From Cladopsammia gracilis (Eukaryota > Cnidaria > Anthozoa > Scleractinia > Dendrophylliidae): a stretch of DNA of 64,000 nt. The notes below the pieces were generated by a model. The model saw only the letters and a list, made by a program, of their open reading frames with translations. It was not told where the DNA came from and did no database searches. Position numbers and translations under genes: made by a program. The stretch lies in the NCBI GenBank assembly GCA_022457155.1, contig JAJGOT010000257.1, forward strand, positions 119,501 to 183,500, read 5' to 3'. This document shows positions 26,914-61,762 of this stretch, one piece after another (position 1 is the stretch's first letter; each line of letters starts with the position of its first letter).

Positions 26914-27008
26914 CCGATTCGCGTATAATTAGCTGCATATAAGCGAATCTAATTATCATCAAATTACCGCATGCAAGCGGGTAAAGTAGGCCCTATTTAC
27001 CTACTGAG
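26914..27008 (+). repeat. Left 95-bp TIR of the giant element
   Basis: It begins CCGATTCGCGTATAATTAG and ends CCTATTTACCTACTGAG. It contains a twice-repeated motif, CYGCATNNAAGCG, at 26933-26945 and 26967-26979, spaced 34 bp. These could be transposase binding sites; that is inference. Confidence 0.8.
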
Positions 27009-27114
27009 AGATTTATGTATGACGTCAGCCTAAATAAATGCTCAATCTGCCTGATTTCAGATTTATTCTGCATTGTGGTGTGTATTGCAGTGCTCGTTTC
27101 TCGGCCTTTTCAAT

Positions 27115-30100
27115 ATGGAAAAAAGAATTACTTTTACGGAGGAACAAAAGAAAATTTTAAACACGTTTTATGAAGGAGGCATGAACTCAACCAAAAAAGA
27201 AATGAGCGACAGGATTCGGGAATGTGCCGCGAAGGTCGCCATTAGTGAGGAGCAAGTAAAGGTCAGTTTTTCATAGCCTTTCTACCAATTGGATTGGCAA
27301 AGTAACAAACTTTATAACTCATGAATAATTTATTGTGGCCTTATTTATCATTTAATGACTTCCTTTACTATAATTTATGGATGTCTTATCAAAACGTTCG
27401 GCCGGTTTTAAATAAGCTTGCGCTTGAGTGTGAGTCAGTTTCAATATTTGAATCGAATTGGCTTTCATCAAGCTTATTTAAATCGATTTGATTGCCGGAT
27501 AAACTTGAATGGCAATCATTTCTTGTTTTTCTGCCAATTTCTATACCGTAGTAAGCTGATCAAATAAGCATTGTTGTATTTTATTCGGATATTCTACAGC
27601 CAACATAAGCATGATGATGTGTCACCTGATGGGTTTGTTATAAATTTTCTCTACAGCACAGGGCGGCTTGGCTCACGAACAGACCACTCAATGGCAAAAT
27701 TTAAGGATTTGTGTGGAACTCGTACTGTTGATTTAGTAACCAAACCAAAAAGCCATTAAAATTTACATAAATGTACGGTTGAACCCTGCTGTTATTACAG
27801 ACATCTTGTTATTATGGACAGTTTTCTTGGTCCCATCCGAAAGCCCATACATTTTCTCTAAAATTTAACCACTTAATATGGACACCCGTTAATACAGAGA
27901 TTTTTCTTGGTCAAGTCAACTCAGTGTCCATATTAACGGTGTTCAACTCCCGGCATAGTAAATCGAACGTTCGGAAATCGAACTCAATTGAACGCAATCG
28001 AACTCAATCCGTGGATTGAGTTCGATTGAGTTCGGCAATCGAACGAAATCGAACACCGGACTTTCAGTGAGTTCGATTTCCGAACAAATCGAATTCAATC
28101 GAACAAATCGAACTCAATCGAACTCAATCCATCTGATTGTGTTCGACTGAGTTCGGAAACCGAACTCGATCGAACACAATTAAATGGATTGCGTTCGATT
28201 GGCTCTGGTAAACCTATACAAAGCAAGCCCAAAGCAGGTTTTTCTTGTGCTTTTCTACAATTTATTCAATAACAGAAACCCATTTATAAACTGTCCACGG
28301 CAGTAAAGAGAACAGAGCATAGCTATCATTATTCCCGCGGGCGTATTCCGAAATTATTGCACCCTTTCCTTTTTTAGCTAACTTACATTTGCGGCAAGAC
28401 AACTCGAAGGGTTACTTTTATGCAAAAATACAATGACGTTAAAGCGGCATTCCTGGTAGCCTTTTACTACGCATTTGAAGCTTACAATCCTCAGCGCATC
28501 TGAAGCCATTTCTGCGGAATTTCTTCGTTTTCGAAAAACATGTTTGCTACACTCTCCGGGCTGAAGTAACTCGTGCTTCCACGATCTGGTTATGGATTTT
28601 CAACGCCTGTTTTACACAAATCATGTGTTCCAAAATCGAATGTTCGATTGATTTTTTTTTCTTTTTGGTGAGTTCGATTTCGTTCGATTGCCGAACTCAA
28701 TCGAACTCAATCCATGAATTGAGTTCGATTGAGCTCGATTGAAATTTAGTTCGATTGGGTTCGATTTACTATGCCGGGTCAACTGTACTAACTGTTTGTA
28801 ATTTTTAGTTCATTCTCAAACCTTACCTAAAGCACCCCAAGGGAGATCACTAAAAATCAGGGTTAGCTGATGAAAGAAAGCCAAAAATTGGCCTTAATAA
28901 ATCCAAAGTGCTCCATAACTTCACTCAATTTTAAATTGTGTGCCTTACATGAATAACGAATGCAATGATTGATCAATATTTGTCAAGGTCATGATGCTAA
29001 TATCTCCCATCAGGGAAAGTTATTGAACCCATGCTTTTGTACCAAAGGCTAATTAAAGTGACCCTGTCAGATTGTACCAATTTTTTCACATATGAAAGAT
29101 CACTTAAAATGGAAATGTCCTGCAGTAAAACTTCATTGCTGTTACATTACAACTCTTATTTATGAACTGAATCTCTATAGATAAAAGAGAGTCACCCTCC
29201 TTCAATGTGCATGTAAACAGTCCCTTAAATTTGGACAAAATAGTAGATTATTTGAAAGGGGATTATTGGTTGAAGATTAATTGCTATGGACATTACCCTT
29301 TAACCACCGAGATAATTCATTATTTCGGTGGTGAAAGCCTGCAATCATCATGCTCAGAAATTAGAAAAAGCAGTTTAGGTTAAATCAAAATGATTTAGGC
29401 CCAAGTTCAATGTTAATCTTTTTATTTATAAGATTGAATCCGATATTGTCTCTGGAGTGACTCAGCCCAAGTCATAAATTGTTACCCAAATCAGAAATGC
29501 TGAACTTAAAATTCAGTAAACCCAATCCTTTATATCTTGGTAGCATAACATTATAATGCGTAGTTCCCAAAAAAAATCCATACCCACCCCATGGAAGGTC
29601 AGCGGAAATTCCTAGGGGGAGGGGGGTCTTAAAAGCCAACATTTTAGAATCAAAGTATGAACCTAAACTGGAATTTCCTGTGGGATGGGGGTGCTAATCA
29701 AAAAACCTTCCATGGGGAGAGTATTGGTTTCTAGAAGTTTTTATAACCACAATCCCTGATGAGGGAGTATAGGCCTTTTTCCATAACAGGGATTAACATC
29801 CGAGGGGAGGACTCCTGTATAAAAATGACAGGAGTGCTCATCGCACCTTTTAGGGGTCAAAATGTGTAGATTGGTACAGCTTAGGATACTTAAATCTAAA
29901 ATGACCACAGTTAGAATTATTGCAGTACCTTTTAGGGTATAAAGCTGAAAAAATATGACAGAATATGACATGTGTTGTCTTAGAATTGGTACCTGTTAGG
30001 GGTAAAAATTCATTGGAGCCACGCCCATCAAACAAGATTCTGCTACGTTTTAGGGTGTTTTTCAAAAATTTCCAACGAGCACCGCTGTCATTTTTATATG

Positions 30101-33100
30101 GGAGTCCCCCCCCCCCCCCCCCACCCCCCTGGATCAACTGCTTGTGTTTTTCTTAAAATATGTCATAAGAAGCATATGGATAAGCCCTCCTCCCCTTGAG
30201 CATTACAGGCCTTGAAATGCAATTAATTATTCCTGGCTATGCATGTAAATGAACTCAAACAGTAACTGACACAAGTATTATTATTTGTTCCTTTATAGCA
30301 CTGGATAAACAACCACCATTCAAAACTGCATGGAACGGCCGTCCGGAATGCACCCAAAAGCAAACAACTTGTCAGAAAACGCTCTGGCTTCAATGCCTTT
30401 ACCAGCGATATTCTTCACAAAGGAATTGCACAATTACTATTTATATCCTTTTTTAACCTTAATTAATTTACTTTTGGTATCTTTTTGACTAAGTTAGTTT
30501 GTATGCAGATATTTGATGATACATGACCATTCTTATAATTTTGGTCTTGCAGAACAGATTGGTGGTAGCAGGGAAGTTTTCCAATCCCTTGGAGAAAAGT
30601 GGAGACAGTTACCTGAATCCTCCAGGAAGTTTTATAAAAAGAAAGCAACTGATTCAGCTGTTGGTGTTGAAGTACCATTGCAAGCCTCTCGTGCCAAAAA
30701 GATCATAAAGAATATTATGACTGAGGTAAAGCTCATATGCAGTCCCCAATAGACCTTGACTCTGACATCTCAGAACTCAATAGTAGGGGACATTTATGTA
30801 CCCACTCACTGTTCGAAAAGAGTATGGTTAATGTAGACCTTGTTGGGGGAGGGGGAATATACACAGACTTGCCCACAGGAATTGGTGCAAGCTGTTGTGG
30901 TGTCACTGACAAGCTTGCCTGAAGCAGGGTGCAGGGTTGTCATAGTAGTTTGAAATAGGGATGTCTGACTTTGTAAAGTAATCTGGTGTTATTTTTTAAA
31001 ATGCCATCTCCTCTAAAGAACTGGCAAGCAGCCGGCTGAAAAGACAAAGTAGGTGGTGATTTTTGGCAGCTGCCAGCTACTTTTGACAACCCTGGGGGTG
31101 CTCTGTATATTTTTAGGTGGGGTGTGTCACTGGGTCTCGGAAACCCTAAGCCCTATACCAGACCATGTTCAGCAGATTTTGCAACCCTATACAAGACTAA
31201 ACAGCGAAAATCCCTACTGTGTATTTGCTACTTTTTGAGACAATTACCACTATTAGTATTTTTAATGGAAACCATTTGTCAACAAATGTTGCCGCGATGA
31301 TCTTATTTCTGTTTTTAGAAGACTCTTTCTCTGCCAAGTTTCAATTCCTATTCTAGACTTAATTCTTCATACCACTGACAGTTTTCTGGCAAATGATATC
31401 CTATTCTAGACCAAAACTCTGATTTCTATACCCTATCCCAAACTAAACTGCTTGGAAACCATACCCTCCACATCAGCTGCACTTACCAACATAGCTTATA
31501 TATGAGAGTACCCCCCCCCCCCCCCCGTCAGAGAAGTATTCCATATCAGCAGATGCCATGTTGAATCTGAGGTGAACAACATTTAAAAGAAGACAATAAT
31601 AGCTAAGAAAGGGGACCCTGCGGTAATGTCATTGAATCTGAGCTGGTGCATGCACTGTTAAATAAAAACTACATGTGTTCAATTCATTCCAATTCATGAA
31701 TAGTTACTGGCCTGTGCCATTTTCCCAAGGTATATAAGGTACATGTACATTCCATGATCATATTATTTATTTTCTATCCCAATACATGATATTAAATGTA
31801 CATCTTATTCTGTTTATTTCTCATAAAGATTCACTTTTCCATAACAATCGACTTCATCAAGCGTAATCGATTTTTGCATGAATGCATTATTATTGATTAT
31901 AATTGTTATTGATGATCAGCACACCACTAGCAACCACTTAATACATTTTATATTGTTTGGTTTGCCAAGGACAAGGCTGTAAATAACAAAATGAAACTAT
32001 TCATAGAAAAGATGGAGCCTGTTGGATTAAATTACTTCTTGTAGTTATTTCATTTCTTTCGTGTTTAATTAATTCATCATACGTGTATGTCTATTAATAA
32101 ATTCAGGTGTGAGAACTTGAAGCTCTTGATGGCCATTGTTTGGTTATGTGTGGTTATGATGGAAACGTCTACCATAGTGCCTCATCACTTGGCGAGCGTC
32201 TGCTATCTCATGCAGGTTTCAATATCATAGAAACATTTGCCAGCTACTTGCAATGTATGTTGTTATATAATAATTTTCTATTAGTTTTTGTGGTTGGTCA
32301 CTTATATTATAACCAAAATCTCTCCTCCTTAAAGCAGTTTGACATAATGTTCCCTTACAATAATATTTCTTTCAAAATAACATGAGGTTACTTAATTAAT
32401 AACAATAATAACAGTGCAATAATCAGTATTTAGTAATGATCACCAATCACACTTACCCAGTCACATTCCCTCGCTTACTCACTTACCCATGAAATTTTCA
32501 AATTATAAATTGAAATAGAACTCCATCCTTGATCCATGAGTAATAAATGGGAAAAAATTAATCACAGTAATTGTTTTATATGATGAGTCTACATTTTTGT
32601 CTTTTAAGGTTCCCAGGATAATAAAGAGGATGTATCTGTTAAGAGTCTGCAAGAGCTATTCAACACCAAATATAGTATGCTGGGCCTTATTGCTTATATG
32701 CTTAACAATTTTGTATTATAACTTTGTTGGTGTGTTACTTGAACAGATAGATTGATTTGTTTACTAATGTTTTTTAAAAATCATATGCTCTTAAATGCAT
32801 GAAATAACCGTTTTTTTCTCGCTTGCATTTTTTTTGTGTGGGGTCAGCATTAGTTCTAGCAAGCAAAATTTTCAACCATAACTGGGGTTGGGGGTTCAAT
32901 CAAGTCTGATCACTTCTGTCATGTACTTTCGTTGGCCACAAAACTTTATTCCCCATGGAATTTTTCCACACAGGTGTATAACTGACTAGTAGCCAAACCA
33001 AAATGTAGAACTTTAGAAATTGTGGAGGGTAATGGCCCGCTATGTAGTAGCATCCCATAAAGTGGGCTCAGGGACAGAGTTGTAGTACACCTTAGATGTT

Positions 33101-33991
33101 TTCTGCCACGAAAAAGAAGTGTTAGGTGACTCAAATAATTTCCAATTCTACAGACTTTGATTGATCAAAACTCTTGATAAGTTAGGGCTGCAATGATCGT
33201 ATCAAACAAATACTCACTCATCGTTTAGCATTGCATCAAACTGATAAAGAATTGTATTATTTTTCCATAAAAGTATAAGTGATAGAAAATGCAAGAAACT
33301 ATTGCATAGCTACCTTAAGTGGTGATTGCTGGACCAATAGATTCTCTGATTGCTTGACAGTGACTACAACAATCAGCAATTTCTTTTTGGGAAAATACTA
33401 AACATGGTCATATGCTTTGTGTAGGTGACCTTATCAATGAGCAAGGGCGGAAAATGCCATATACCAAGCTCCATGTGAACTTTTCCAAAACACTTCTTCT
33501 CCAGGTGGTTTTGTCATTTCCAAAGGTAAGGTTCTAAGGGTAATCTTCTGTAGATGCCTTGGCAGACGTGATGCCAAGGCAACACTGCTACAGACAATCT
33601 TGTTGTCCTGGTCACCGCAGAATGTTATTCAGAGTATGTAGATGCGGATGTTAGCTTTTAACTCAGGTTGAAGTAAAGTGACTTTGAGTTCTCGTTCAAA
33701 ATATAGTCATTTCACATGTTATATGTTGTCTTTATGCAGACACTGAGTTTGGAATGATGATTTCTAGCACAAACAGTGCAATCCATGCCTTTTGCGTTCT
33801 GTCTCCGAGAACACAGCTACACGGCCGCGCAGTGTCTCCAGGGAATGTGGTTGTAGAAGTTCGTAAGCTGCTCAAGCCAGGATTACGTCCTTTGTGCCAT
33901 GGCGCTTTTGATGCTGAGGATCCTGTTTGTGTTGGTGGATTTTACGAATGGCCCTGCAACCTACTTACCTTTTTGAGTGAAGATTTGAAAT
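27115..33991 (+). CDS. Cargo gene with homeodomain-like and HMG-box-like modules
   Basis: Exons by splice signals and frame: 27115-27261, 30299-about 30428, 30553-30725, 32107-32254, 32609-32674, 33425-33525, possibly a 13-nt exon 33621-33633, and 33740-33991. Exon 1 starts at an ATG and encodes KRITFTEEQKKILNTFYEGG. Joined to exon 2 it gives a helix-three-like VKHWINNHHSKLHG, so a homeodomain-like fold. GFNAFTSDIL then leads into exon 3 (FQSLGEKWRQLPESSRKFYK), an HMG-box-like pattern. Later exons have no recognised domain. A DNA- or chromatin-binding role is inferred. Damage: no GT donor after exon 2, and an in-frame TGA at 32110-32112 in exon 4. Without the 13-nt exon the last join is out of frame. 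Downstream exons, if any, were not found. Confidence 0.6.
27774..28787. mobile_element. MITE in intron 1, carrying a nested element
   Basis: The outer ends read TACGGTTGAAC and its near-inverse GTTCAACTGTA. TA flanks suggest Tc1/mariner-type insertion. The real element is about 180 bp; the remainder is the nested element at 27949-28778. Confidence 0.55.
27949..28778. mobile_element. TIR element built of TCGAAC words
   Basis: CCCGGCATAGTAAATCGAAC at the left is inverted at the right end, ending CTATGCCGGG. TCAACT flanks both ends (27943-27948 and 28779-28784). Both subterminal zones, about 250 bp and 130 bp, consist of repeated GAACTCAATC/GATTGAGTTC words and can fold on themselves. No ORF. 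The superfamily is unknown. Confidence 0.82.
28788..30298. other. Rest of cargo-gene intron 1
   Basis: AT-rich sequence with two TIR elements. One is about 29570-29745, ends TCCATACCCACCCCATGGAA and the imperfect inverse. The other is about 29808-30120, ends GACTCCTGTATAAAAATGAC and the imperfect inverse with a C-run. No exon found here. Confidence 0.5.
30726..32106. other. Cargo-gene intron 3
   Basis: Between about 30790 and 31530 lies a repeat-like stretch with a GGGGGAGGGGGAATATAC start and a C-run near 31511. The words CCCTATACCAGA, CCTATTCTAGACC and CCCTATCCCAAAC recur, which looks like a decayed tandem or MITE. No exon found. Confidence 0.4.
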
Positions 33992-34041
33992 GTCAGTTGT
34001 TTTAATAGGATGAAATGAATAATTTAAATTGAATAAAAGTA

Positions 34042-34621
34042 CACTGGACAAAACAATTGAGGATTGGATTTAAAGATAACAATTGAATGGTTTACCTACA
34101 TTCCATTACGGTGATTTTACTTCATCCGTGAAATATGTTATGGAGTTCAGTAACACTCTCTACTACACCTTACATCTTTTGTTATCTTTTATTGATTTAG
34201 GTATAATAGTCACTGACTGTTAAACTTTGTTTCAAGGGCTTAGTAAAACAAGAACAAAATGGCACACATGTAATATTTTATTTTTATATGGAAAGTAGTT
34301 CAAGGACTGTCAATAGCCAACTCGATCTGATTAAAGAGCCGGAGAACGATTTTCATTGTAGGTTTCAAACATTCTGCAGCGAAGCAAACTTAAGTGCATT
34401 GTATATATTTGCTACCATATGGCGAATTGCATTTTTGGGCCGAAAACGTACGTGGTTGCGCGCGTTTCCCCACCTTTATTCTGATCTTCACGTTTACATT
34501 CGTGTATTTTAAAACTTTCCATGTGTGAAACTTTCTTGCCTCTTATGTGGCCGTTTTAATGGAATTTAGTTAACTAAACGTCATTATAACGTAACCCAAT
34601 CCTCAATTGTTTTGTACAGTG
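34042..34621. mobile_element. TA-flanked MITE with CACTGGACAAAACAATTG ends
   Basis: CACTGGACAAAACAATTGAG at 34042 is inverted at 34621 with one difference in the first 20 bases (CACTGTACAAAACAATTGAG). TA lies on both sides. A 74-aa ORF inside is not recognised. It sits just after the last detected cargo exon and may have displaced downstream exons. Confidence 0.78.
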
Positions 34622-34908
34622 TACTATCTCTTGACCTTTGCAATGTCCCGGGGATAGCCTGGGCATAGCTGAGAGCTAATGAGTGGTCTATGAACTTTCC
34701 ATTACTATAATGTTGCGTAATTAGTTTTGGACTTTCCTTAGGAGACAGCTTAAACATATTCTTGATCTGTTATTTGTCGATCCATACTTTTTAACCTTGT
34801 TTTAAAAAAGGGATGATTGATGCCCATGCGAGAGCTCCCCAGGTTGATAGCGGGCTAGCTATTTGGGTGTCTATCTATTTATTATGAACTTCAATTTCTT
34901 TAATAATA

Positions 34909-35071
34909 CCGTCGACTCCCGATAACTCGAACCTTCGTGGGAAATAGAAAAAGGTTCGAGTAAGCGAGAGGTTCGCGGGTTCGAGAAATTACAGTAAATG
35001 TATAACGGAAATCCAGGGAAAATCGATTTTGGTTCGAGTTAGCGAGGGTTTTAGGTATTGGGAGTCGACTG
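34909..35071. mobile_element. Short TA-flanked MITE, pogo/Tigger-like ends
   Basis: CCGTCGACTCCCGATAACTC at the left and TTGGGAGTCGACTG at the right are inverse, with GGTTCGAGT words within. TA flanks both ends. Similar ends are known from pogo/Tigger-type MITEs; this match is from memory. Confidence 0.7.
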
Positions 35072-35860
35072 TAGACCTTCATTTATTACTTGTTTTTCTT
35101 TTTCTTTTGTTAATTCACAAATGCCCCCCTTTTCCCTCACTCTTAAAAATAACGCAAAAATTCTCGAAACTTCGCATTACATTGATCTGCAGGATGAATG
35201 AACGCATTTTAGATTACTTGAAGAAACGTTGACGCAATAAAAATAAATAAAATAGTGCATTAAACTGTAAACACTCACCCCCCCCCCCCCCCCCCCCCTC
35301 AATACTAAACCGATCGCGTCTTTAATGCACACGTTTTCCCGTTCCAGTTACGTGATTTTCTTCAAGTTTCGATTCGGATTCATTAAGCTGCTTACATCTG
35401 TCGTGATTGGTCAAGAGATTACCTTGGTTGTGATTTTACAACCCTCGGTTGAGAGGCATGTACGTATTTTTATTACTATCTTTAATACAAGAGAATGCAT
35501 TCAATCATTTTGTAAGACGTTGACTTTTTGCTGTATTTTTCACACTTGCCTACAATAAAAGTATGAGTTAATTGCTTTGAATGCAGCCTGTATATTCAGT
35601 ACTGGTTTTAAAACCCGGGTCCTTTTTTTTACCAGCCAAATGGGTATTCATAAAAGAAAGTATGCCCTCTAACCCGCGCGCTTCCTTTTCAAAACTACTT
35701 CTAAAACCACCGTACGAGGGTAGTACCCGTTAGGGCAAGTGCGACCGGTGCATAAGGACCCGCGCGATGTGATTTGAAACAATTTGGTCAGTGTTGTCTA
35801 CGTATAACAATTTCTTCCACTTAATCAGGTTTTTTAAATTATTTCTGGATCCATGATATA

Positions 35861-36039
35861 GACCTCTTTCATAATGGCGGCCGATTTATTTATTCTTTTA
35901 TATGTATGTTAATTAGCCTCACTGGCCTCATTCTAGAGTAAAAATTCTTTTGAATTTTGCACACGCTAACGAGGCCACTAAGGCTAATTAACATACATAT
36001 AAAAGAATAAATAAATCGGCCGCCATTGTGAAAGAGGTC
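35861..36039. mobile_element. TA-flanked MITE with about 60-bp TIRs
   Basis: GACCTCTTTCATAATGGCGG...TTAATTAGCCT is inverted at 35980-36039 with one or two mismatches. TA flanks both ends. No ORF. Confidence 0.85.
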
Positions 36040-36360
36040 TATCACCTTAAATTTTGATTGGATGACTTTAAAATGCGTTCATTGGTCGACCTATCTTATT
36101 GCGACATCACAGCATTTCATTATGAGATAAAGACGAAAGCCGGTAGTTTCTTGGTGTTGCGGATGGTGTGATCACCAAATGACGTATAACAAAAGATTCA
36201 AAAGACACTGAACAATACCCAAACCACAACACAAAAGCTAACCAACAATGGCTTCCGCAACACCAAGAAACACCCCGAAAGCCTGTTGATTGTGCGATTC
36301 CCGCTAAAAAGAGACTAATTCATGTCATCCCTCCTATACTACTAACGAGGATAGGGCACT

Positions 36361-36438
36361 AATACCCTGCGAGCAGTGGATTGTCCTACGCCGAACAAGA
36401 ATTCACGGCGTAGGAGAATGCACTGCTCGCAGGGTGGG
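36361..36438. repeat. Bipartite hairpin
   Basis: ACCCTGCGAGCAGTG pairs with CACTGCTCGCAGGGT, and inside it CCTACGCCG pairs with CGGCGTAGG. The two stems are separated by small internal loops. It could be a foldback element end. Confidence 0.6.
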
Positions 36439-36677
36439 GAACTAACTGCAAAATAAATCCTTCAAAAATCCAGCGCTAGTTGTCGTAATCAACCATGAAC
36501 CGTATTTCATTGGGTCATATGATAAAATGGGTAATGACCTAGTTAGGACGCGCCGGACGAAAAAAAATGTTTGGCTATCGGCCGTGACCTCTCAGTTCGC
36601 ATGCACACCATGATCGTGCGGCCCGACCTAATTCAGTTAATAAGTACATTTATCATATGACCCGTACGGCCCTGCGA

Positions 36678-40863: not shown

Positions 40864-40869
40864 AACAAA

Positions 40870-41017
40870 TTACTTCACGGTTCGTTCGCTTGTACGATTT
40901 TTATTCACTCGTTGGAAAGAATCACAAACTCACTCGCTCGCAAAGCCTCGCTCGTTCGTTTGTGATTCTTCCCAACTCGTGAATAAAAATCGTACGCGCT
41001 CACCAACCGTGAAGTAA
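40870..41017. repeat. 148-bp foldback element
   Basis: TTACTTCACGGTT and TACGATTTTTATTCACTCGT, with AATCACAAAC further in, are inverted in the second half, which ends AACCGTGAAGTAA. It is nearly all stem. It abuts the 40167-40863 element and the resumption of the satellite. Confidence 0.8.
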
Positions 41018-46383: not shown

Positions 46384-46461
<78 letters not shown>

Positions 46462-46598
46462 CTAGTTAAAAAGACCGAAAATGGACAACTCTTTTTAACT
46501 AGTTTTTTATTATATCCACCGAATCCGGACTGTGAATCCATTATTGTGATCCTTTTGGTATGACATCTTTCGTTGGCTCAGGCAGCACCTTCAAAACC

Positions 46599-46632
<34 letters not shown>

Positions 46633-49600: not shown

Positions 49601-52600
49601 GCGTCGAACTTTCAACCTGAAGGTCGGTGGTTCGAAGCCTGGTCTCTGCCGTCGTGTTGTTTCCTTAGACAAGAAACTTTACTCCACACTGTCTCTCTCC
49701 ACCCAGGTGTATAAATGGGTACCGGCGACAAAATGCTGGGGGTAACCTTGCGATGGACTAGCATCCCATCCTGGGGGGAGTAGCAATATTCTTAGTCGCT
49801 TCATGCTATAGAAACCGGGTTTAAGCTCCGGCCGTTGTGAGCCTTCTGGCTCGGGTGCGCGACTTTACTTACATGCAGTTTGAGATGTCAATTGCTATCC
49901 AATAGATATAAATTTATACATACTCCTCTCCCCTCTTTAAACTGAAAAATTTTAACGGCACTTCATGTCTGCAGCCAGCTCCAAAGAGGGCAGTCTCATC
50001 CAATTTTTTGGACTTTATTTTTGACCGAAGATTGGAACCTGCTTGAAATTGGTTGCATGAGTCCTATATAATGGAATATATAATGGAATTAAAAAGAAGC
50101 AGAATTATGAAAACAAAACAAAACAAAACCTGGATACTGATAGTTACTTATTTTTGTCACAAAAAAATGACAGCATTTCAGCACTTTCTTTTTTTTTAAC
50201 AACCTGATAAGTGTACAAGTAACAAACTTCAAATACATGTACCTTTTTTCTTGTAAAAGAAACCATTGGTAATGCTTATTCTTTCAATCAAGCTGTAGAA
50301 TGTTATCTTTGCCTCGTGCGGGTGAAGGTCTTGGGTTAGTTTCAAATGTAAGTGGCACTAGCATTTATAACCAGTGTTATGTTGTATTGCATATTACATG
50401 TAGATGGAACAAGTGTGTTATCTGCATAATGAACACCAACATGACAGCCCCTCCTCCTTTACCCGGGCTTGGGACCGGCAAAAGTGCAAACATAAAAACA
50501 CTCTTGGCAGAGTTAACTGTCACAAGATGTCAAATTATTAAAATAAAAATTATATATAATTATGAAATTGCCGCACAATAACAAAATTCTCCAAATGGTA
50601 TGATTTTTAAATCGGAATTGCAGTGAAACTCACTGGTGCTTTGGAAGTGGGCTTCTTATTATAAGATGTTATAAAGGAGTCCACCTTGTCTTGCTCAATA
50701 AACAAAACCTCTCCATGATTGGGTGCTTTGGCACTTGTCCCAGCACTGCACTTCCTCGCACAACCAAACAATGCATCAATGGAAATATACATGTTTCAAT
50801 TTTCCTAAAACAGTAACAGGTTTTCCACATCATCAACATTTACAAAATTAATAATATTGTAGATTTCTACACGGCAATTATTCCACTTAACAGGTCGATT
50901 GCACTGAGAGAAATTATGTCATACATATATAGGAGATTTCCTAACAACTGAAAAACTATTAACAAACCTTAGGACAGGCTGGACATTCATGATCTTCACC
51001 CAACAGAGAATTGAAATAGGAAAGGTTGTTCAAAATACTGGATAAAAACCTAAACTCTCCAAAACACTCTCCAACAAGAAGCCTGTAAACATCCTTGACC
51101 TGCAAAACAGAGTATTAGTCAGCATAACAACAAAGAACTAAGAAAAGCTTGTTTTCTTGTAAAACTGAAGGAAATTTCTCTCCAAATGGAAGTTTGACTC
51201 GAAAAGCCTTGACTGTGACTTGTTGGGCTGTACTCTAACAGTGTTCAGGGGCCAAGGGCTAATAACGTTTGTCTTTAGGCAACTATGAAAACTTACTTTT
51301 TATTTTGTCTTAAGTTTAATATGTAATAAATACATGCAAGTACTCAAGAATTCCCCCTGCACTTATTTTGTGCCTTCATCACTGCCTTTAATTGGTGCTT
51401 TGTAACAGAAACAATCCACATTTAACTCTCTTTTTATAATTATGTTTGACAAAACAAACTGAAAACTGTGTTAATAAAATTGCTGAAACAGACTGCGACC
51501 ACTTTGGTCGCCAATGGTGAATTGAAAAAAATGGTGATTCATATTGCCATGGAAGTTGCAAATTTGGTGACTTGTATTTCGGCAGTGATGTAGTAAGATG
51601 ATGAACTTGATCACTTTATTTGGCAATAGCCCCTTCCCAAAATGTATGAAGAGGACACAAAGAATAGTTTGCTCATACCAATTTGAATTTGATCACAGAC
51701 CTGCCACTTAAATAATTTAGGGTCAAAATGCTCAGAAGTAAAATGTCTCATGTAATATGTGTCTTGCAGAGGAAAATTAAAATGCATTTTTAGATTGGTG
51801 ACCAAAATGTTATATTTGGTGACCTTTTTACCAGTGCAGGTTGCAAAAATGCTACTCAGAAAAAAGTATAGCTTGGTGAGCTGATTACAAGCTATAACCA
51901 ATATCTTGTTCAACATTATAATAGGAAGATGCTGGAACAACAAAATTATTAAATACTTACATAAACTTTTGAAAGGGAAGGAGCCAGCCACTGGATTGCT
52001 TGGTAAGCAGTTTTCAGTGAAACTCTGCACTCCAGGAAGAAATACTGAAGTAGCCTCATCAAACCTTGATCAAAAGCAACTACAGGCTGCTTGGGAGTAG
52101 ATGGCCAAAAGCCATTCCTCACAAGAGTCACAGCTTCAGGCTCATGCGAACAGAATTTCACTTTAATGGCATGCTGTTGGCCTAAAAAAAAGTATTTCAG
52201 GCCAGAAAGTAAAGGTATACATGTATGCTAAGACCATAACAATCCCTTAAAGAATTTGGCAAGTGGGAAGGGAATACCCATGATGCAGACTACATGTGCA
52301 TTTGAGGAGCAAGGCAACTGTCTCCCACTCATGTGGCCTGCATTGAAATCCCAGAATTGACACCACATGCGGGCTGAATTTGACCTATTAGTTCTCATCC
52401 CTGTTCCTAGGTTGTCAACATTAAAACTGTTGATCTGACTCGTCAAAACAAGCCTTTTAGCTAGTGCTACATCAGTGCTACAATGACAATCCACAATAAA
52501 AATTTGTAAACATTTCATTTCATTTATGACAAACACAATCAAAACTTACCATTCATACCAATTGCTGTAATGTCACGAATGTAACTATGATCATTATTAT

Positions 52601-54031
52601 GTACTGTGGACCAGACGCATTCATCAAACTGATAGGGAACGTACCTACCATCCTGAATTTGAAAAGAGGGAATAATACTAATGGTATCTTACTTTGTGGC
52701 TAAGTTGCTGTCTTTCTCATCAGTATAGATGTATCACTTTAACTTGGCTCTTAAATCAATAATATTTGCGTATTAAAGAATGAAGATTAGAACATATTTT
52801 TGGACATGAAAATGGGCATGGCTTTTTCACTAAAGGTTTGGCATTGATCTCTTTTTAGTACCCTGGGTGTTTACCTGTAGCAGTGGTGCATTTGTTGATC
52901 GAATAAATTCTTTTGAATAACATAAACAATCAGTCACATTGAACTGCTGAAAAATACAACCTGAATAATTTATAGGTGAAGAAACTATGATTTAAATGTA
53001 CATTCTGTTAGTTAGATATTGCAGTTAAAACATTTCAAGACAACAAAAAAAGACCACCGTTAAAAAGTGAGGAGAGTTCAGTGTGTGATTATATGAGCCG
53101 GGTTGGTCCAGTTTGATGAGATGACTTTCAACCTGGTATAACATGAGGTGGCCCAGCCCTGGCCAGACCTAAATTTAGCATCAATGATTTAGGCTGAAAG
53201 TTGTTGTTTTGAAAATGGTGGTGAAGCATAGATTGTTTTAAAAAAGCATTTTCCCAGCTTTTTTGGTTCTTTGTGCTTTCAGAACTAACCAGTCTTTATG
53301 TCATTTAGAAAGAAAAGTGACCATTTACACCCGGGCATTTACAGGCCAGCAAGTTTGCTCTAAGGCATTTTTTTTTTTGCTGTTCCGGTTAGCCGGGCTG
53401 GCCCAGTAAACGCGATTACATGGAATAATTTCAGCTCAGTTAGCCGGGATCCCTTATAAGCTGCTGGCCTAGTTGTCATGTCATTGCAAAGTTGATTTTT
53501 GTTGTCTCGGCAAAACTAGGCCAGCCCTCTATAAACTTTAGATTCATTCATCAATAACATGACAATCCACATAACTAGGGAATATTATACCTTCCAGAAT
53601 TCCGGCTGGTGCAAGGTTTTACCTCCAGCATGGACAGCCCCTATGTGCTCTTGGCATACAAACTGCCCAGGACTGCACTGAAGGCATCTCCCTACAGCCT
53701 GTTCTCCACAGCAAGGTATCACACATTTCTGATCGACCTCCAACGACTGCAGTGATACCATTGCTGAAAGAAGATTTTCCCTGACATCTTTCCACGACGC
53801 GGCGAGCCTAACCTTTCTTTCGCGGTAGGCTTTAATTTTTTTTCTCAATTTTACTTTTCGAAACCTTGCCGTTTTAGTTTTCGAGACAGAATCCGCAGAA
53901 TCAACGGCTTCATCTAGTGGAGACATTTCTTCCGCGAAACCGGTAGCGCCAAATGCGCTTGTTGTCGTCGAAGTTGACGGTGCATCCAGCTGCTGAACCG
54001 CGTATCGAATATGAGGGGTGTTTACCGCCAA
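43640..54031 (-). CDS. KDZ-family transposase gene, 11 exons, apparently damaged
   Basis: Exons in transcript order: 53591-54031, 52550-52652, 51961-52181, 50968-51099, 50634-50804, 49924-50063, 49188-49300, 48379-48462, 47630-47811, 47152-47247, 43640-44342; all use GT-AG sites. Exon 1 has the cysteine cluster CVIPCCGEQAVGRCLQC with CQEH, as in KDZ CxC domains. Exon 3: FWPSTPKQPVVAF. Exon 4: ECPACPK. Exon 5: ISIDALFGCARKCSAGTS. Exon 6: DETALFGAGCRHEVPLKF. Exon 7: YDIACVLDTHLK. Exon 8: IPPFHCYGHKVSCQ. Exon 9: SDGEVMERLWSYL. This motif order is that of KDZ transposases. The tail is acidic. Damage: TGA at the start of exon 5, and frame breaks in exon 7 (A-run), at exon 10 (G-run) and in exon 11 (A-run, near 44112). 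The true start codon is unclear because the frame is open upstream of 54031. Confidence 0.85.
46036..46457. repeat. Long (AT)n runs flanking the tRNA-like unit
   Basis: AT runs at 46036-46096 and 46388-46457, with a third at 46602-46630. ORFs of alternating Tyr/Ile across them are artefacts. Confidence 0.9.
46114..46185 (-). tRNA. tRNA-like gene, possible tRNA-Thr(AGT) or pseudogene
   Basis: On the minus strand: acceptor GTCCTGA pairs with TCAGGGC (one G-U). The D arm contains TAGTGGTTATC. The anticodon arm is CCTGA-CTAGTGT-ACAGG, with an A-A mismatch at the loop end and AGT in anticodon position. The T arm GTGGG-TTCAAAT-CCCAC is perfect. Length 72 nt. A truncated copy with the same flank lies at 46708-46757, so this may be a tRNA-derived repeat and not an active gene. 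Confidence 0.5.
46708..46757 (-). pseudogene. Truncated copy of the tRNA-like unit
   Basis: It matches the 3' two-thirds of the 46114-46185 unit (acceptor 3' strand, T arm, anticodon arm) and then diverges into AT-rich sequence. Both copies are bordered by ACTGAATAAATGT, supporting a repeat family. Confidence 0.6.
48554..48727. mobile_element. MITE with CAGGGGCGGATCCAGG ends
   Basis: CAGGGGCGGATTCAGG at the left and CCTGGATCCGCCCCTG at the right are inverse. GTATAC adjoins both edges. The interior carries a G-run, a C-run and AT-rich sequence. It lies in intron 7 of the KDZ gene. Confidence 0.82.
49573..49868 (+). mobile_element. tRNA-derived SINE with 14-bp target duplication
   Basis: The 5' end has RNA polymerase III box A-like (GGTCTAGTGGTTAGCGCG) and box B-like (GGTTCGAAGCC) sequences. 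A non-tRNA body follows with GCGATGGACTAGCATCCCAT. TTACATGCAGTTTG is exactly repeated on both sides (49559-49572 and 49869-49882). The 296-bp unit sits in intron 6 of the KDZ gene. Confidence 0.88.
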
Positions 54032-54040
54032 AATTAGAAA
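53592..54040. promoter_or_regulatory. KDZ 5' end shared with the inverted duplication
   Basis: Similarity to the right arm of the inverted duplication begins at about 54006, inside the first KDZ exon as drawn. The sequence upstream (54040-54449) is therefore the shared region between the divergently oriented KDZ gene and the integrase-like gene. It contains repeated TTCTATTATGCACTTCTGCA-like words. A bidirectional promoter here is inference. Confidence 0.35.
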
Positions 54041-54457
54041 TATTATGCTTTTCTGTCTTGATGTTTCAGACCTCTAAAGTGCTATTATGTTCTTTCCATT
54101 TGGCATTGTAAAATCCAATGCTGGATTTTTGTATTCTATTATGCCATTTTGCACTTCTACATTCAAAATTAGAAATTACATTATGCTTTTCTGACTTGAT
54201 GTTTTAGACTTCAAAAGTGCTATTATGTTCTTTCTATTTGGCATTGTGAAATCCAATGCTGGATTTTTGTATTCTATTATGCCATTATGCACTTCTGCAT
54301 TTCGTTATGTGTTTCTCTATTCTATTATGCACTTCTACATTCTGTTGTGCGTTTCTGTATTCCATTTTCCATTGGATCATTCTATTATGCACTTTTGCAT
54401 TCTATTATGTTGTTCTGTATTATGCTTACGTCATATCCTTCATGGCACGCAATGGAC

Positions 54458-57372
54458 CATTCTCGTCCCCAGAGCCGCTTGGCCCTCTTAACCGCTGGAG
54501 CCTGAGTACGAAGGTCAAGGGGCTCTGGGGACGCAGGATTTGATTGGCTAGTCTGAAAACAATAAAATCTAAAACGGAAGTAAAAAATATAGATTAGGTC
54601 ACACTACCGGGATATCGAGTTAGTGATCATTTTATGCAGAATTCAGTCAAAAAATCGCTTTGTAGCTTGCATTTAAACTGTCGGAAGGTGTTGGATTGGG
54701 ACGCTTATTGGATTGGGACGCTTTTAAGTGCTATACTTTGTTAACTAGAGGAAGAAGTTCGATCGAGGATTCCTTTGGCTGGACGTAAACAACATGGTCA
54801 ACAAAACTTCACCGACCCACCGAGGATTATCAATTTCAGGCAGTGTCCTGCGAAACTATTTTGTGGATCAGAACATATTAACGAATCGCCTTATTTGATA
54901 AAACAGCTGTTTACGACGATCAAAAAGCAGCTGGATCGCTAGTTTGGTTTACTAACTGTGGCAAGTGCATTTATAAATTTCAAAGGTACTCAATTATTTA
55001 TGTCAAAATCCACATTTCGTAGTAAAATTTGCCACCCTTCTTGAATTCCAGTATATTACGTGTAGCTGTTCATTTTTGGGTGTTATATTTGGTTTCACGA
55101 TTTCATTATTCCTGTATAAACGATTGAGTACTGCACTGCATTTTATCAGATTTGAAAATATACTTTTGCGATAACATTCCTTAATAACCATGAGTGATGG
55201 ACTGTCTTGAGACCCTTTAATTCCACTGTAGACACTGTATTATTACCAAAGGTTAAATAAACGTTATGGTGGTTCACTTCATTTTTCTAATTAATTTGTT
55301 GTTTTTATAATAAAGTGTATCCATACATTTATTGCAATTTTTCATTGTTTATTTTTTATGGAAAATATAATTTGGGCAGTTATCATATGAAGTGGTTTCA
55401 CACTAGGTCTTCCAAGTATGCTAAGTGCCCTTGACCAAGTTTAAATGTGAAAGAGTATAATGCACATACTTAAACCCTACATTGTGACCAAAGGAAGTCC
55501 ATTGCAAGTACTCTTTCACAGTTTTTTTGGCTTTCCCTCCATATCAATCCCAGTAACTGACTGCCTGTAACAGGCTAACAGAATGCTGATCAGTACATGT
55601 GATGTGCTTATCCTCCAACTTGCTTCTGCTATACAGACTGTGTGGGCCATGTATCTAAGAGGACAAGATACCTGTTGGTTTACCAACTACTCTTGCTTTT
55701 TCTAGGACTGACAATATAAAGTTGAGCCTTTTTCAAAATTAATGGTGCTTTATGCATCCAGCACACTAAGTATTTATGAACTGTAACAGTTACCACATTG
55801 ACAATCTGTGAAACTGCGAGAAGCTAACACAGTTGTAATGAATACTCTCCATGCCTGGCCCAAAATCAGGTGATCAGGCTTACTAATCTTACACTGGCAC
55901 CAATAAAAAACATACTTTACAAGGCTGTTATCTCATTTATAATATGCAAGTTCACTCTGAAACATTTGACTGTTTAATTTTGTTTTAAAATGATTATGAC
56001 AGTGGCATATATCTACATGTGGTACCCAAACAGATAGATTCCATTTCCTGTTAGGCTGATCTTAGAACTCATGCTAAAAAGTTAGCTTTAGTTCACATAC
56101 AAACTTTTACAGGCAGGATTTACGAGAATGAAATATTAACATAGTCTTTCAAAAATTGATTTTCATTTCTGAAGATGACAATGGATCTTGTTATCTGTTG
56201 TAAAAGCCCATCAACTCTGCAAAGGTTCAAATGGAGTTTTCTGGAAAGGGAGAATCTGTTGAGTGAAGTGAGTGCATGTACGAAAGAACCAAGACAGATG
56301 CTGGAGCTCAATCAGTCTTCATGTCTTTTGCATCTGCACTCATCTTGTTTATCTAAATCACCCTTATCCCTCTTTGAGCTGATGTGGTGATGAGCTTAAG
56401 CCAAAAAAAAAAGATTTTTATGTTTACAGAACTGGAGAACATTGGCCTTCAGCAGCCAAATTTAATAGAGTGATAGGAGATGACATTCAATGACCGTGAA
56501 ATCTATCACTGGTTGATTCACCTGCAATGCTTCTTTGACTTTTGGGCTACTTGTAGATCTCCATTCAGCGACCTTTGCAATAACAGTAGTATTTTTTTGG
56601 TGGTAGTTTTTTTTATTTCTCCAAATAACAGTGCGAATGCTCTGCCCAGAGAAAAAAATGTCATGTAGATGCAAAAAGTGATTTTATTAAAGAGTTCAGT
56701 GCACAGAAAGCCACAACACATATTTCAACATTTCATTAGACATCATTTCTCTTTATTTTTCTTCGCTGTTCAGTCTTAGATTAATTCAAAAGGTCTAGTA
56801 AAGCTTGTATAAAAGCCAAAGGGAAATAACGTACTTGTAAGTTTGAAATGTCCAAAAGATATTTTCATTAGTGAAGTCAAAGATTTGTGAATTAAAATAC
56901 CATTCAGATCGATATTTGGCTGTAAATAACATCTAATACCTTGAATTCTGGATGCAAAAATCTCGGCATCGGCCAGACTAGCCATTAGTTGATGATAAGT
57001 TTAAATGTCAGCTGATGTAAGCTTATTCATAAGCCAAAATCCTGGAACTATCTGATCACGAATTACGACGATTTTTACCACATCCACGACTCAAAAACCG
57101 CCGAAAGTTCAACGATAGCATCTAACTACTCCTCGCCAAAAGAAAAACGTCCAACTTCTGAAATGTGACAGCCAGAATCCTGCCTTTTCTTGCACCGCGT
57201 TCTTCTCGTTGCAGTTGTACGTCCGCCATTTTGAAAAAACTCTGAGCCTGCGTAGAACAACCGGAAGTCCTAGATTCTAGGACTTCCGGATCGTGTGTCC
57301 CCAGAGCCCCTTGACCCTCGTACTCAGGCTCCAGCGGTTAAGAGGGTTAGGCGGCTCTGGGAACGAGAATGG
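54458..57372. mobile_element. hAT-type transposon, non-autonomous, 2.9 kb
   Basis: Ends of about 75 bp starting CATTCTCGTCCCCAGAGCC and the inverse ...GGGAACGAGAATGG; each end is partly self-complementary. Flanks are CAATGGAC (54450-54457) and CAGTGGAC (57373-57380), 7 of 8 identical. The unoccupied sister site near 61300-61310 has a single CAGTGGAC, so the insertion boundaries are supported. No transposase ORF is seen. A minus-strand ATG at about 57228 opens a 35-codon exon-like frame (MADVQLQREERGARKG) near the right end, possibly captured host sequence. Confidence 0.85.
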
Positions 57373-57822
57373 CAGTGGACAAAAATTGGATGGCTGAGTA
57401 GGGGAATGGGTCTAGTACGGCCAAAATGGCGGACAACAGCGACGGGAGTCATGCAGCAACCAGAAACCACCTTCGTAATGTTTTGTTAGATATTTTGAGA
57501 CAGCTGGAGTCGGGAAATGCTGACTCTGATACCCTGGATCATGTGCAATACCGAATAGATTGGCTGTATGGGATCATACTGAAGTGTTTTGATGTTGGAA
57601 TTGTTGACGAAAGAGTAGTCACCACTGTGAGAGAAGCCCTCGATTGTTTCAAGTTGAATGGTACTGATGTGATGTATCAAGCAGGAAAGGTGTTTACTGG
57701 TAGTTATGGCAGACCCAGATATAATATTTCTAGAGAACAACTTGATTCTTGGTTCAAAAGAGGTTCAGCGTTGCCGAAATGGCACTTTTGCTTGGTGTAG
57801 GAAAACGAACTGTTGAGAGGCG

Positions 57823-58323
57823 GGCTAGATTTCAGAATACCCTGTCACTTAAAATTCACCTTCAAAAGCTGCTCCCGCAGTCCCGCAGTCGTACAAATTT
57901 ACATAATAACGCTATGTTCAACAGACCGTACCGTTGTCGTGAAATTATGTCACAACTGGAATAGGCATACAATATGTATATTTCTCGTTCTTAAAACGTG
58001 AAAAAACGAACAAGCGTAGCAATGAATCCAGCTTTTTCCACTAAACAGAAGTTCTACTAAACACACTTTAATTATCAAGCGACTACAGGACCTCGGGACT
58101 GCGGGAGCAGCCGTTCTACTACACTTACGTTAATTATTCAGCGACTACTGGACCGCGGGACTGCGGGAGTAGCCATTCTTCTACACTTACTTTAATTGTT
58201 CAGTGACTTCAGGACCTCGGGACTGCGGGAGCATTTAAACACGTTCCTCACTGCCCACTGCGGGAGCACGGGAGCAGTAGTTTTATGTCGTTCAAAAGTG
58301 GCGGGGTATTCTGAAATTGCTGC
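57823..58323. mobile_element. 501-bp non-autonomous hAT-type element
   Basis: GAGAGGCG flanks it exactly (57815-57822 and 58324-58331), while the uninterrupted sister gene has it once. Ends GGCTAGATTTCAGAATACCC and GCAGCAATTTCAGAATACCC (inverse of the right end) match in 16 of 20 bases. The interior has repeated CGGGACTGCGGGAG words. An 8-bp duplication indicates hAT. Confidence 0.9.
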
Positions 58324-58578
58324 GAGAGGCGTTTGGACGAATTCAGTTTTTCGATCAGGGCAACGTACGCTGATATGTCCAATGAAGAATTAGATGCAGA
58401 AATTTCCAGTATATTGAGAAACTTCCCAGACACCGGATATAAGCGTATGACAGGATTTTTGCTTTCCCGCAATATACGAATTCAGCAACAGCGAATTCGT
58501 GAGGCAATGAGAAGAGTTAATCCTGAGGGAACACTTTTGCGGGCTTTAGAACTGAATGTTGTACAAAGGAGAAAATAT

Positions 58579-59956
58579 CCCATCGCCAGAAATCTCGAAC
58601 CAAAGTGGGCGGAGATCATTTGTGACTCACTCGACCATATCAATAGGATTGTATTGTATTTCAGAATATCTGATTGGTCGGGTGGCGAAATGGATCAGTC
58701 TGCCTGTCGCGCAATATTTTTATGACCGCTTCTGTTGGGGAAAAAGTGCTTTTTCTTCGCTAAACAAGGTTTCTTTAGCTATTTTTTTGGCAAAAAAGCG
58801 AAGCTTAATACACAAATAAAACGACGTCGTCTATCGAAGGCGAAATGTTATACTAGAAAGAGAGAATAGACCGTTTTTGAAACAACAGACAGAGGTCACG
58901 TAATATTTACTGTGACGTTCAAACTAGTCCGCCAAAATTCAACCATAGTAGGCCACCAAATTAGGAACAAGGCTAGTTTCTAGTCCTTATGGGATCTAAA
59001 GAATGCCTGGTCAATATTTTTTTCTGAACTTTGTAAACAACGAATTCGGCGAGGTTTTTCACAAGTATGCGGCCTCGAATGGCGACCCCAGGGGGGGGGG
59101 GTACTCCCTATAATGGGCTATACGGGGATGCTCCGCCCGAAAGGGGTACCTTTTTTAGGCTAGAGGTATATGAAAGGGTCGGGATTTCACGAGTTGAAGT
59201 ATATGAAATGGTAGGGATTTTACGAAGAATAGGAAAGGGAAGTGAAGCCACGCCGTTGAAGCATAAAAAAGGTAGAGAAAACTGCCATTTAACTATTGTA
59301 AAAATGGCCTTTCAAAATATCTTAAACAGACACACTTAAAGGCTCTCAAAGGGGTACCATTTTCATTGAAAGGTATATGAAAGGGGTACCTTTTCTGTCA
59401 AAATCGGTATATGAAAGGGTAAGGGTTTGAACCTCGGGGCGGAGCATCCCCGTACGAAACTTTGCTGAGTGGCGACACGAAGAGCTTATTGCTTATTGCA
59501 TAAATTGGATTTTAAAAACCGAGCCGAAATCATGGCGAAACTGCCAGATATTTTGCACAGAAACGGAGTGATGTTGGAACTTATCAAATGGATGCAAAGT
59601 AAGGTACGTGGCACTCATTCACCGGCACAAAATGAAAACAGAATTCGGGTCCGCTGAGATCTTTGACTCAGACGCCTTCAAAATGGCATCGTAAATATAA
59701 CTTTACAAAATTCGCAAAACCGAACCGAAATTGAAAGGTTTTATACCGAGCGAACCTCCGAAACAAACTTTGAAAAGGTCTGTTCAAAATGAGATACGGA
59801 GCAGCTACTGAATTGTAAAACATTTTAATCGTCGTAACTTTGAAAATTATTTCCAATACATTTTTTGTAAAGAGATAATCAAAACAAAGGCCCAAAATTT
59901 CTAAGTGCCACGCTTCAACTGCGCATGTCGATTCAAAATTTCTGCGATGAAGTCCG
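58579..59956. mobile_element. 1.4-kb insert in the integrase-like gene, with a nested MITE
   Basis: Absent from the sister copy, where AAATATC and AAAAGCCCTTTGG are about 5 bp apart. The ends are not clearly inverted and the target duplication is unclear. A MITE lies at about 59088-59475 with ends sharing ACGGGGATGCTCCGCCC and its inverse. ORFs inside (e.g. 59469-59657) are not recognised. Confidence 0.6.
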
Positions 59957-60441
59957 CAAAAGCCCTTTGGCACTGTGGCATATAGATGGGAATCACAAAC
60001 TTGTCAGGTGTGTGGGCCATTCCATTCAACATCCACACCCCCTGTTGCATGAGATTTTGAGGGGGGGGGGGGTGAAGCGGTGTGAAGCGGTTGAAGAAAA
60101 ATTGCATTATTTCTGTGGGGAGAGGGTAGTAGTAGTAGGGTGGTAGTTTACGTTTGTTAGAAGAATTAAAAAAAACTTACATGTACATGTATGTAAGCCC
60201 CTTGCTTACACCTGAGCTCGGGTTCACATTAAACTTTTGAATTCTCAAAACCATCCTCATGTTTTCACCAGGCTATATAAGCATATGTGTTGCAGGTAAA
60301 ATCCGTTCTCAGGTTGAATCAGTATTCAATCTAGGTTAAATGTGTACCCAGTATTCTATCTAGGTAAGCTAACTTTAACTAACCCCAGTTAACTCTAACA
60401 CAAAGCTAACCATCACACTATTGGCTATATGTATCTTTGTG

Positions 60442-61254
60442 CTAATGGTCTCTCCACAGAAATAATGCAATTTTCTTCAAGCGCTTCACACCTACCCAAC
60501 TCAAAATCTCATGCAACAGGGGTTGTGGATGTTGAATGGAATGGCCCACACACCTGACAAGTTTGCGATTCCCATCTATATGCCACAGTGCCAAAGGGCT
60601 TTTGACTTGATATTTACTCCTTTGTACAACATTCAGTTCTAAAGCCCGCAAAAGTGTTCCCTCAGGATTAACTCTTGTCATTGCCTCACGAATTCGCTGT
60701 TGCTGAATTCGTATATTGCGGGAAAGCAAAAATCCTGTCGTACGCTTATATCCGGTGTTTGGGAAGTTTCTCAATATGCTGGAAATTTCTGCATCTAATT
60801 CTTCATTGGACATATCAGCGTACGTTGCCCTGGTCGAAAACCTCAATTCGTCCAAACGCCTCTCAACAGTTCGTTTTCCTACACCAAGCAAAAGTGCCAT
60901 TTCGGCAACGCTGAACCTCTTTTGAACCAAGAATTCAAGTTGTTCTCTAGAAACATTATATCTGGGTCTGCCATAACTACCAGTAAACACCTTTCCTGCT
61001 TGATACATCACATCAGTACCATTCAACTTGAAACAATCGAGGGCTTCTCACACAGTGGTGACTACTCTTTCGTCAACAATTCCAACATCAAAACACCTGA
61101 GTATGATCCCATACAGCCAATCTATTCGGTATTGCACATGATCCAGGGTATCAGAGTCAGCATTTCCCGACTCCAGCTGTCTCAAAATATCTAACAAAAC
61201 ATTACGAAGGTGGTTTCTGGTTGCTGCATGACTCCCGTCGCCGTTGTCCGCCAT
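60442..61254 (-). pseudogene. Integrase-core-like gene, right copy, one stop codon
   Basis: Starts MADNGDGSHAATRNHLRN at 61254 and is uninterrupted by insertions. A TGA at about 61046-61048 replaces AGA of the left copy. After it the frame stays open to 60442, covering VAEMALLLGVGKRTVERR, STRATYADMSNEELDAE and LWHIDGNRKLVRC. Beyond KLVRC it runs into non-family sequence, exactly as in the left copy, so the truncation predates the duplication. The lesions of the two copies differ, so they decayed independently. Confidence 0.8.
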
Positions 61255-61667
61255 TTTGGCCGTACTAGACCCATTCCCCTACTCAGCCATCCAATTTTTG
61301 TCCACTGAGTGCCATGAAGGATATGACGTAAGCATAAGTGCATAATAGAATGATCCAACGGAAAATGGAATACAGAAACGCACAACAGAATGTAGAAGTG
61401 CATAATAGAATAGAGAAACACATAACGAAATGTAGAAGTGCATAATGGCATAATAGAATACAAAAATCCAGCATTGGATTTTACAATGCTAAGTGGAATG
61501 AACATAATAGCACTTTAGAAGTCTGAAACATCAAGACAGAAAAGCATAATGTAATTTCTAATTTTGGCGGTAAACACCCCTCATAATCGAAGAGGCACAC
61601 GAAGCTTCGACTTTTTAGCCGCCTTTCCCCCTTTAATGAGACTATGTGACCAAGCCTTTTCTTTCCA

Positions 61668-61762
61668 CTCAGTAGGTAAATAGGGCCTACTTTACCCGCT
61701 TGCATGCGGTAATTTGATGATAATTAGATTCGCTTATATGCGGCTAATAATACGCAAATCGG
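61668..61762 (-). repeat. Right 95-bp TIR of the giant element
   Basis: Inverse of 26914-27008 with three substitutions and no gap. It carries the same two CCGCATNNAAGCG motifs. CGTCATG follows at 61766-61772. Confidence 0.8.

Follow-up and report, generated by a model that had tools for sequence, protein, structure and literature searches.

In a 64-kb stretch of the Cladopsammia gracilis genome (here called the window; C653:119501-183500 in an 877.8-Mb assembly of 1469 contigs), two 95-bp sequences lie in inverted orientation at the ends of a 34.8-kb interval, identical at 92 of 95 positions (E = 1e-38 in a self-comparison of the window) and with no third comparable copy in the 64 kb. Just inside them start two genes that converge on each other, a plus-strand gene encoding a homeodomain and a high-mobility-group (HMG)-like part, which we refer to as HD-HMG, and a minus-strand gene encoding a KDZ transposase (Table 1). 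The original prediction, made from the letters of the window, had described this interval as a giant KDZ transposon with terminal inverted repeats (TIRs) and cargo, and the TIR pair, the heptamer CGTCATG abutting the left TIR and lying 3 bp outside the right one, and a homeodomain/HMG-like gene separate from the KDZ gene were all recovered as it described them. The 3-bp offset on the right is explained by the left end of the window copy, which lacks the first CAC of the termini seen in sister copies (CACCCGATTCG…CGAATCGGGTG), so that the duplication comes to exactly 7 bp. We are confident that the interval is a single old copy, no longer active, of a giant KDZ-superfamily transposon that has TIRs of ~98 bp, CA…TG ends, a 7-bp target duplication and two convergent genes.

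Table 1. Coordinates of the KDZ element, its genes and its nested insert, in positions of the 64-kb window.
Feature	Position	Strand	Remark
Left target-site duplication, CGTCATG	26907-26913		abuts the left TIR
Left TIR, 95 bp	26914-27008	+	lacks the terminal CAC of sister copies
HD-HMG exon 1	27115-27261	+	N-terminal two thirds of the homeodomain; begins 106 bp inward of the left TIR
HD-HMG exon 2	30299-30422	+	homeodomain helix 3 and start of the HMG-like part
HD-HMG exon 3	30553-30725	+	HMG-like part
HD-HMG conserved coding block 4	32116-32241	+	edges approximate; tblastx against C1127
HD-HMG conserved coding block 5	32611-32679	+	translated comparison with C1127
HD-HMG conserved coding block 6	33409-33471	+	translated comparison with C1127
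HD-HMG last conserved coding block	33733-33966	+	translated comparison with C1127
KDZ transposase gene	43640-54003	-	~16 coding blocks, with PF18758 and CxC1; reading frame shifts near 49.25 kb
6-bp duplication ATCGAA, left of nested insert	54004-54009		insert absent from C330 and C1383
Nested IS3EU-like element	54010-61585		in KDZ exon 1; two inverted copies with integrase-like remnants
6-bp duplication ATCGAA, right of nested insert	61586-61591		
N-terminal coding piece of KDZ exon 1 (…KGGKAAKKSKLRVPLR)	61587-61636	-	separated from the remainder by the insert
Right TIR, 95 bp	61668-61762	-	terminal GTG at 61763-61765
Right target-site duplication, CGTCATG	61766-61772		

A search of the assembly with the 95-bp TIR gave 581 first-look candidates, 40 of which were scored; 41 listed matches resulted, and 30 loci were extracted. 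Besides the window, wide TIR pairs were found among these loci at C330:498250-527123 (28.9 kb) and C1383:149711-172392 (22.7 kb). All three are colinear, at 94.4% identity over 21,651 aligned bases between the window and C330, 94.0% over 20,971 between the window and C1383, and 96.3% over 22,130 between C330 and C1383. A diverged second family is represented by C1127:32955-58085 (25.1 kb), which has its own 97-bp TIRs (94/97 identical). In all four large copies, across both families, the KDZ transposase lies near one TIR and the HD-HMG gene near the other in the same convergent layout, the TIRs measure ~95-98 bp, and three of the four carry an exact 7-bp target duplication (TCCAAAA at C330 and a perfect ACCATCC at C1127), compared with none of 12 combinations when flanks were swapped. 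The genome search that the original prediction had proposed thus yielded three more large TIR pairs bracketing KDZ genes, which supports its reading as a giant KDZ TIR transposon. Its expectation of an empty site with a single target was borne out in part: at the paralogous site C1229, sequence related to the left flank continues across the insertion point without the element (93% over 89 bp of the joined query) and keeps one near-copy of the target at 6 of 7 bases, but the right flank allows comparison over 4 bp only, since the window runs into another repeat at that point. The right flank itself, from about 10 bp outside the element (61776-61917, perhaps further), is a repeat found at 99% identity in nine other loci, and the flanks of the C1127 element resemble reverse-transcriptase coding sequence by eye.

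In a read-through translation, the KDZ gene of the window matches PF18758 in two reading frames (51.5 and 27.7 bits; Pfam cut-off 26.6) and CxC1 (31.5 bits; cut-off 26.9), with CxC2 at 20.6 bits falling under its cut-off of 27. From 7,995 scored candidates we obtained 66 protein relatives, the closest named ones being from the stony corals Montipora (50%) and Pocillopora (49%). Acidic positions within the motifs IDALFG, YDIAC and SDGE, putatively the catalytic residues, align between the window protein and its relatives. The short coding piece beside the right TIR resembles the N-terminus of a Paramuricea relative (8/16 identical, E 0.001, the best of 66 queries), and in C330 exon 1 is uninterrupted, its ATG lying 77 bp inward of the TIR. 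The transposase gene therefore adjoined the right TIR, and this links the TIR to KDZ. No Polinton/Maverick protein-primed DNA polymerase B was found with Pfam in 27001-36902 (both strands), 44129-54100 (minus strand), 54010-57400 (one frame per strand) or chosen open reading frames (ORFs). Across the genome, KDZ loci gave at least 67 matches (best 80 of 109 candidates scored), and the KDZ loci other than those of the large copies showed no HD-HMG exon match at the sensitivity used. Further KDZ loci lie on C263, C1270, C953, C964 and other contigs, C263 and C1270 each having two about 11 kb apart.

The HD-HMG gene is split such that joining exon 1 to exon 2 lifts the homeodomain match from 15.7 to 27.5 bits, and the homeodomains of the HD-HMG proteins score 25.8-27.5 bits against a cut-off of 22.9. 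A translated comparison with C1127 extended the gene by the further coding blocks of Table 1 and revealed no block of comparable strength between 34 kb and 43.6 kb, where the last KDZ exon lies. All 10 exon matches to a 148-residue part of HD-HMG in the genome fall at the four large elements (35/35 candidates scored), and the DNA around exon 1 has four genome matches (4/4 candidates scored). A first protein search, before the two families were aligned, returned one short genomic fragment only; with the two-family alignment we found six relatives, from Pocillopora, Dendronephthya, Montipora, Acropora and two others. Between families, the ratio of nonsynonymous to synonymous substitution rates (dN/dS) was 0.18 for HD-HMG and 0.08 for KDZ, with corresponding ratios of uncorrected proportions (pN/pS) of 0.36 (bootstrap 0.30-0.45; 297 codons in 7 blocks) and 0.23 (bootstrap 0.19-0.26; 697 codons in 14 blocks), and within family 1 the ratios for both genes spanned 0.75 to 1.92 with wide intervals, for a dN/dS of about 1. 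Constraint between families combined with nearly neutral ratios within a family is, on these sequence comparisons, the pattern of genes that would be selected via transposition and drift after insertion. Between the two convergent genes, two arrays of 115-bp tandem repeats occupy 38559-42631, and related arrays occur in C330 and C1383.

These observations bear on whether HD-HMG could instead be captured host cargo, a passive gene that contributes nothing to the life cycle of its carrier. Homeodomain and HMG are folds of host-type transcription factors, many giant families in Ectocarpus carry accessory genes of mostly unknown function in the available part of their description (PMC12477816), and the gene is damaged in some coral copies: C1383 lacks exons 2 and 3, and in the window and C330 the splice donor of exon 2 is GA rather than GT. 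Such a passenger would have to be reconciled with the presence of HD-HMG in four of four large copies of two families, always opposite the KDZ end, with purifying selection between the families, with relatives in several corals, and with the lack of any other copy of its exons found in the genome, and we consider passive cargo unlikely. The HD-HMG gene looks integral to the element rather than random cargo, because its homeodomain/HMG exons match only the four elements in this genome and the gene is under purifying selection between families. The original prediction was thus right that a second gene is present, but what it called cargo looks like a conserved gene of the element.

The TIRs of the large element are also common to many short, MITE-like (miniature inverted-repeat transposable element) copies. 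The 30 loci comprise the six ends of the three large copies, 17 distinct short pairs, four repeat views of short pairs, two loci with a broken opposite TIR (L020 and L021) and one single end (L015), the last three loci being left out of the 17. Most of the short pairs (14/17) span 533-551 bp, and the other three measure 223, 494 and 1568 bp, one TIR of the longest (L012) being split into two pieces. With offsets of up to 5 bp tolerated on either side, an exact duplication of at least 7 bp flanks 12 of the 17, compared with 4 of 272 when flanks were swapped between loci. In four short loci compared with the large element, the TIR is the sole common sequence. One could therefore suppose that the 95-bp sequence is a common MITE end and that two unrelated copies face each other across 34.8 kb around unrelated genes, as the number of candidate TIR places and of short pairs in the genome might suggest. 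Many TIR copies are indeed such MITE halves, but the pair and the KDZ gene occur together at the large copies: two more loci show this pair of ends bracketing the same colinear DNA, the diverged family, with TIRs and a duplication of its own, repeats the layout, and the KDZ coding sequence begins immediately next to the TIR. The colinearity of the sister copies from TIR to TIR refutes a solo-MITE reading for the large copies, and a chance pairing of ends is very improbable.

The window copy is dead: its KDZ gene has lost about 97 bp including the start codon, a 7.6-kb insert interrupts exon 1, and the exon with the YDIAC motif carries one frame-shifting extra base that neither sister copy has. 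The original prediction had called this gene complete, and its blocks are recognisable throughout, but this description does not hold for the window copy. Decay has also reached C1383, where KDZ exon 1 has two stops. The nested insert is 7,576 bp long, has its own ends, TATGAGGGG…CCCCTCATA, and is flanked by the perfect 6-bp duplication ATCGAA, and C330 and C1383 are both empty sites for it. IS3EU elements are described with 6-bp duplications and TAYGG ends in the available part of their account (Kojima 2025, PMC12730594), and we label the insert IS3EU-like only tentatively, because its ends read TATGA; its integrase-like gene matches rva_4 at 18.9 bits, under a cut-off of 26. Its right edge lies 82 bp from the inner edge of the right TIR, with integrase-like remnants close inside, which could suggest that the TIRs belong to the IS3EU-like element and KDZ is the passenger, but a nested element with its own ends and 6-bp duplication that is absent from two sister copies keeping the same TIRs refutes this, and we give it almost no credence. 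Within the insert, hAT-like elements occupy ~54458-57372 and 57823-58323. We had considered its right-end integrase copy a processed pseudogene from the block pattern and dropped this, as two of three gaps in the longer copy resemble TIR insertions with short duplications rather than introns; the third gap spans 58580-59956. Insertions in the window copy that are missing from both sisters total ~11 kb (the sum of alignment gaps), so that the predicted 34.8-kb span is real but includes about 11 kb of later insertions.

The KDZ protein probably cuts and pastes the element at its TIRs and also mobilises the MITEs that share the same TIR; once broken, the window copy could have moved only in trans. 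The core of homeodomain binding sites is TAAT, and TAAT/ATTA is enriched in the TIRs, with 4-5 occurrences in 95 bp (shuffle fractions 0.011-0.027 for the five TIR ends tested out of eight, which are related and not independent). The constancy and position of the HD-HMG gene and the fold of its product suggest that the protein may be an accessory factor in transposition or regulation, one that attaches to the TAAT-rich TIRs and possibly bends them, or that acts instead on the element promoters adjoining the TIRs. A predicted model of the Pocillopora relative P0068, poor overall (mean pLDDT, the per-residue model confidence, 49.8) and usable in its homeodomain part alone, contains a three-helix homeodomain that aligns with many single homeodomains at a target TM (template modelling score) of 0.8-0.9. 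Binding to the TIRs, bending of them, or control of TIR-proximal promoters would all fit the predicted protein. Host HMGB proteins serve RAG and other transposases, and the proposed HD-HMG role would be the equivalent for KDZ. The element is a candidate two-protein transposition system, and it is conceivable, at somewhat less than an even chance in our judgement, that an anthozoan lineage of giant KDZ transposons works with two components, the KDZ transposase and an element-encoded HD-HMG protein that recognises and bends the TIRs. Folded as single strands, the TIRs are more stable than shuffled sequences (z -3.3 and -2.0), from which we draw no conclusion.

Several observations weigh against a mobile element with two functional, conserved genes. 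In Cryptococcus, KDZ elements with TIRs have been seen to move, according to the available part of that report (PMC12810828), whereas for the coral element we infer mobility from its sequence features. C1383 has no clean target duplication, nor have five of the 17 short pairs, and the enrichment of TAAT/ATTA in the TIRs is small. The HMG part is weaker than the homeodomain: its matches fall under the Pfam cut-off in the three proteins with scores shown (the window protein, P0068 and P0069), the C1127 match has an E of 0.0013 or worse, and in the P0068 model it forms a weak second three-helix region (pLDDT ~53-78). A fold search with this model gave no match at E 0.001, the best being a double homeodomain at 0.015. 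The damage to HD-HMG exons noted above counts here as well. Homeodomain and HMG-like parts occur together in only two of the six relatives, P0068 (Pocillopora) and P0069 (Dendronephthya), P0070 to P0072 matching the C-terminal part alone and P0067 being a fragment. Finally, synonymous divergence (dS) between the families is near saturation.

Boehne et al. are said to have described Zisupton as a fish element in 2012. Like the coral element, Zisupton has a multi-exon KDZ transposase with TIRs in animals, but it is far smaller, with core regions of 8.1-8.9 kb in Pristionchus, it makes 8-bp duplications (none were found in Pristionchus) where three of four large coral copies have exactly 7 bp, and the accessible descriptions of its copies mention no second gene (PMC9297572). 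Cryptococcus KDZ1-3 likewise share TIRs (139-241 bp) and a KDZ + CxC1 transposase, but are fungal, measure 9-11 kb and make duplications of 8 bp (KDZ1) or 4-8 bp (KDZ2 and KDZ3), and no HD-HMG gene is mentioned in the accessible part of their description (PMC12810828). Kyakuja elements share the 7-bp target duplications and the CA…TG termini (the window's left end having lost its CAC), but the two families described in the available text have no TIRs and carry TET/JBP, where the coral element has ~98-bp TIRs and HD-HMG (Kojima 2025, PMC12730594). The signs of subgroup thus conflict on sequence features, with Kyakuja-like duplications and ends and Zisupton-like TIRs. RAG-like and Nuwa/Harbinger transposases are not known to be related to KDZ, and the likeness to them is an analogy of design only. 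RAG-like transposons also have two convergent genes (PMC7204232), and Nuwa/Harbinger elements pair a transposase with a separate DNA-binding protein (Nuwa, Myb/SANT; PMC12730594), both as given in the available portions of those papers.

Giant KDZ elements reach 30.3 kb in Ectocarpus, and a mobile one in Chlamydomonas measures 31.7 kb, according to the available part of their description (PMC12477816). The Ectocarpus elements resemble the coral element in transposase, size range, nested insertions, extra genes and an often pseudogenised transposase, but the coral element has an animal host and its extra gene is HD-HMG, conserved across two families. Our literature search, with most subscription papers and Repbase outside its coverage, found no description of a giant KDZ element in cnidarians or of KDZ with a homeodomain gene; a broader search met one cnidarian paper that uses the searched phrase a single time (PMC9926710). 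Giant KDZ elements with extra genes are known in algae and fungi, a correction to the original prediction, and the animal host and the HD-HMG second gene appear to be new. Many hosts of giant cut-and-paste transposons have long haploid phases, in the account available (PMC12477816), an idea to which an animal family of 22-35 kb with a conserved second gene is relevant. Such an element would also be a transposon source of homeodomain genes, which annotators may mistake for host developmental genes. In viral contigs, no stretch contained a 25-base piece of the TIR, and a search for a KDZ relative gave five pattern matches, none of them confirmed.

Elsewhere in the window, a BEL/Pao-type long terminal repeat retrotransposon lies at 20388-26349, bounded by 165-bp direct repeats of 99.4% identity and containing long ORFs of gag-like, reverse-transcriptase and Pao protease/integrase type. 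An inverted repeat at 13633-17266 (99.9% over 1457 bp) of a GIY-YIG-domain ORF that reads like reverse transcriptase could reflect either recent duplication or an artefact of assembly, and a tandem array of 66-bp units at 12298-12848 is largely open in one frame.

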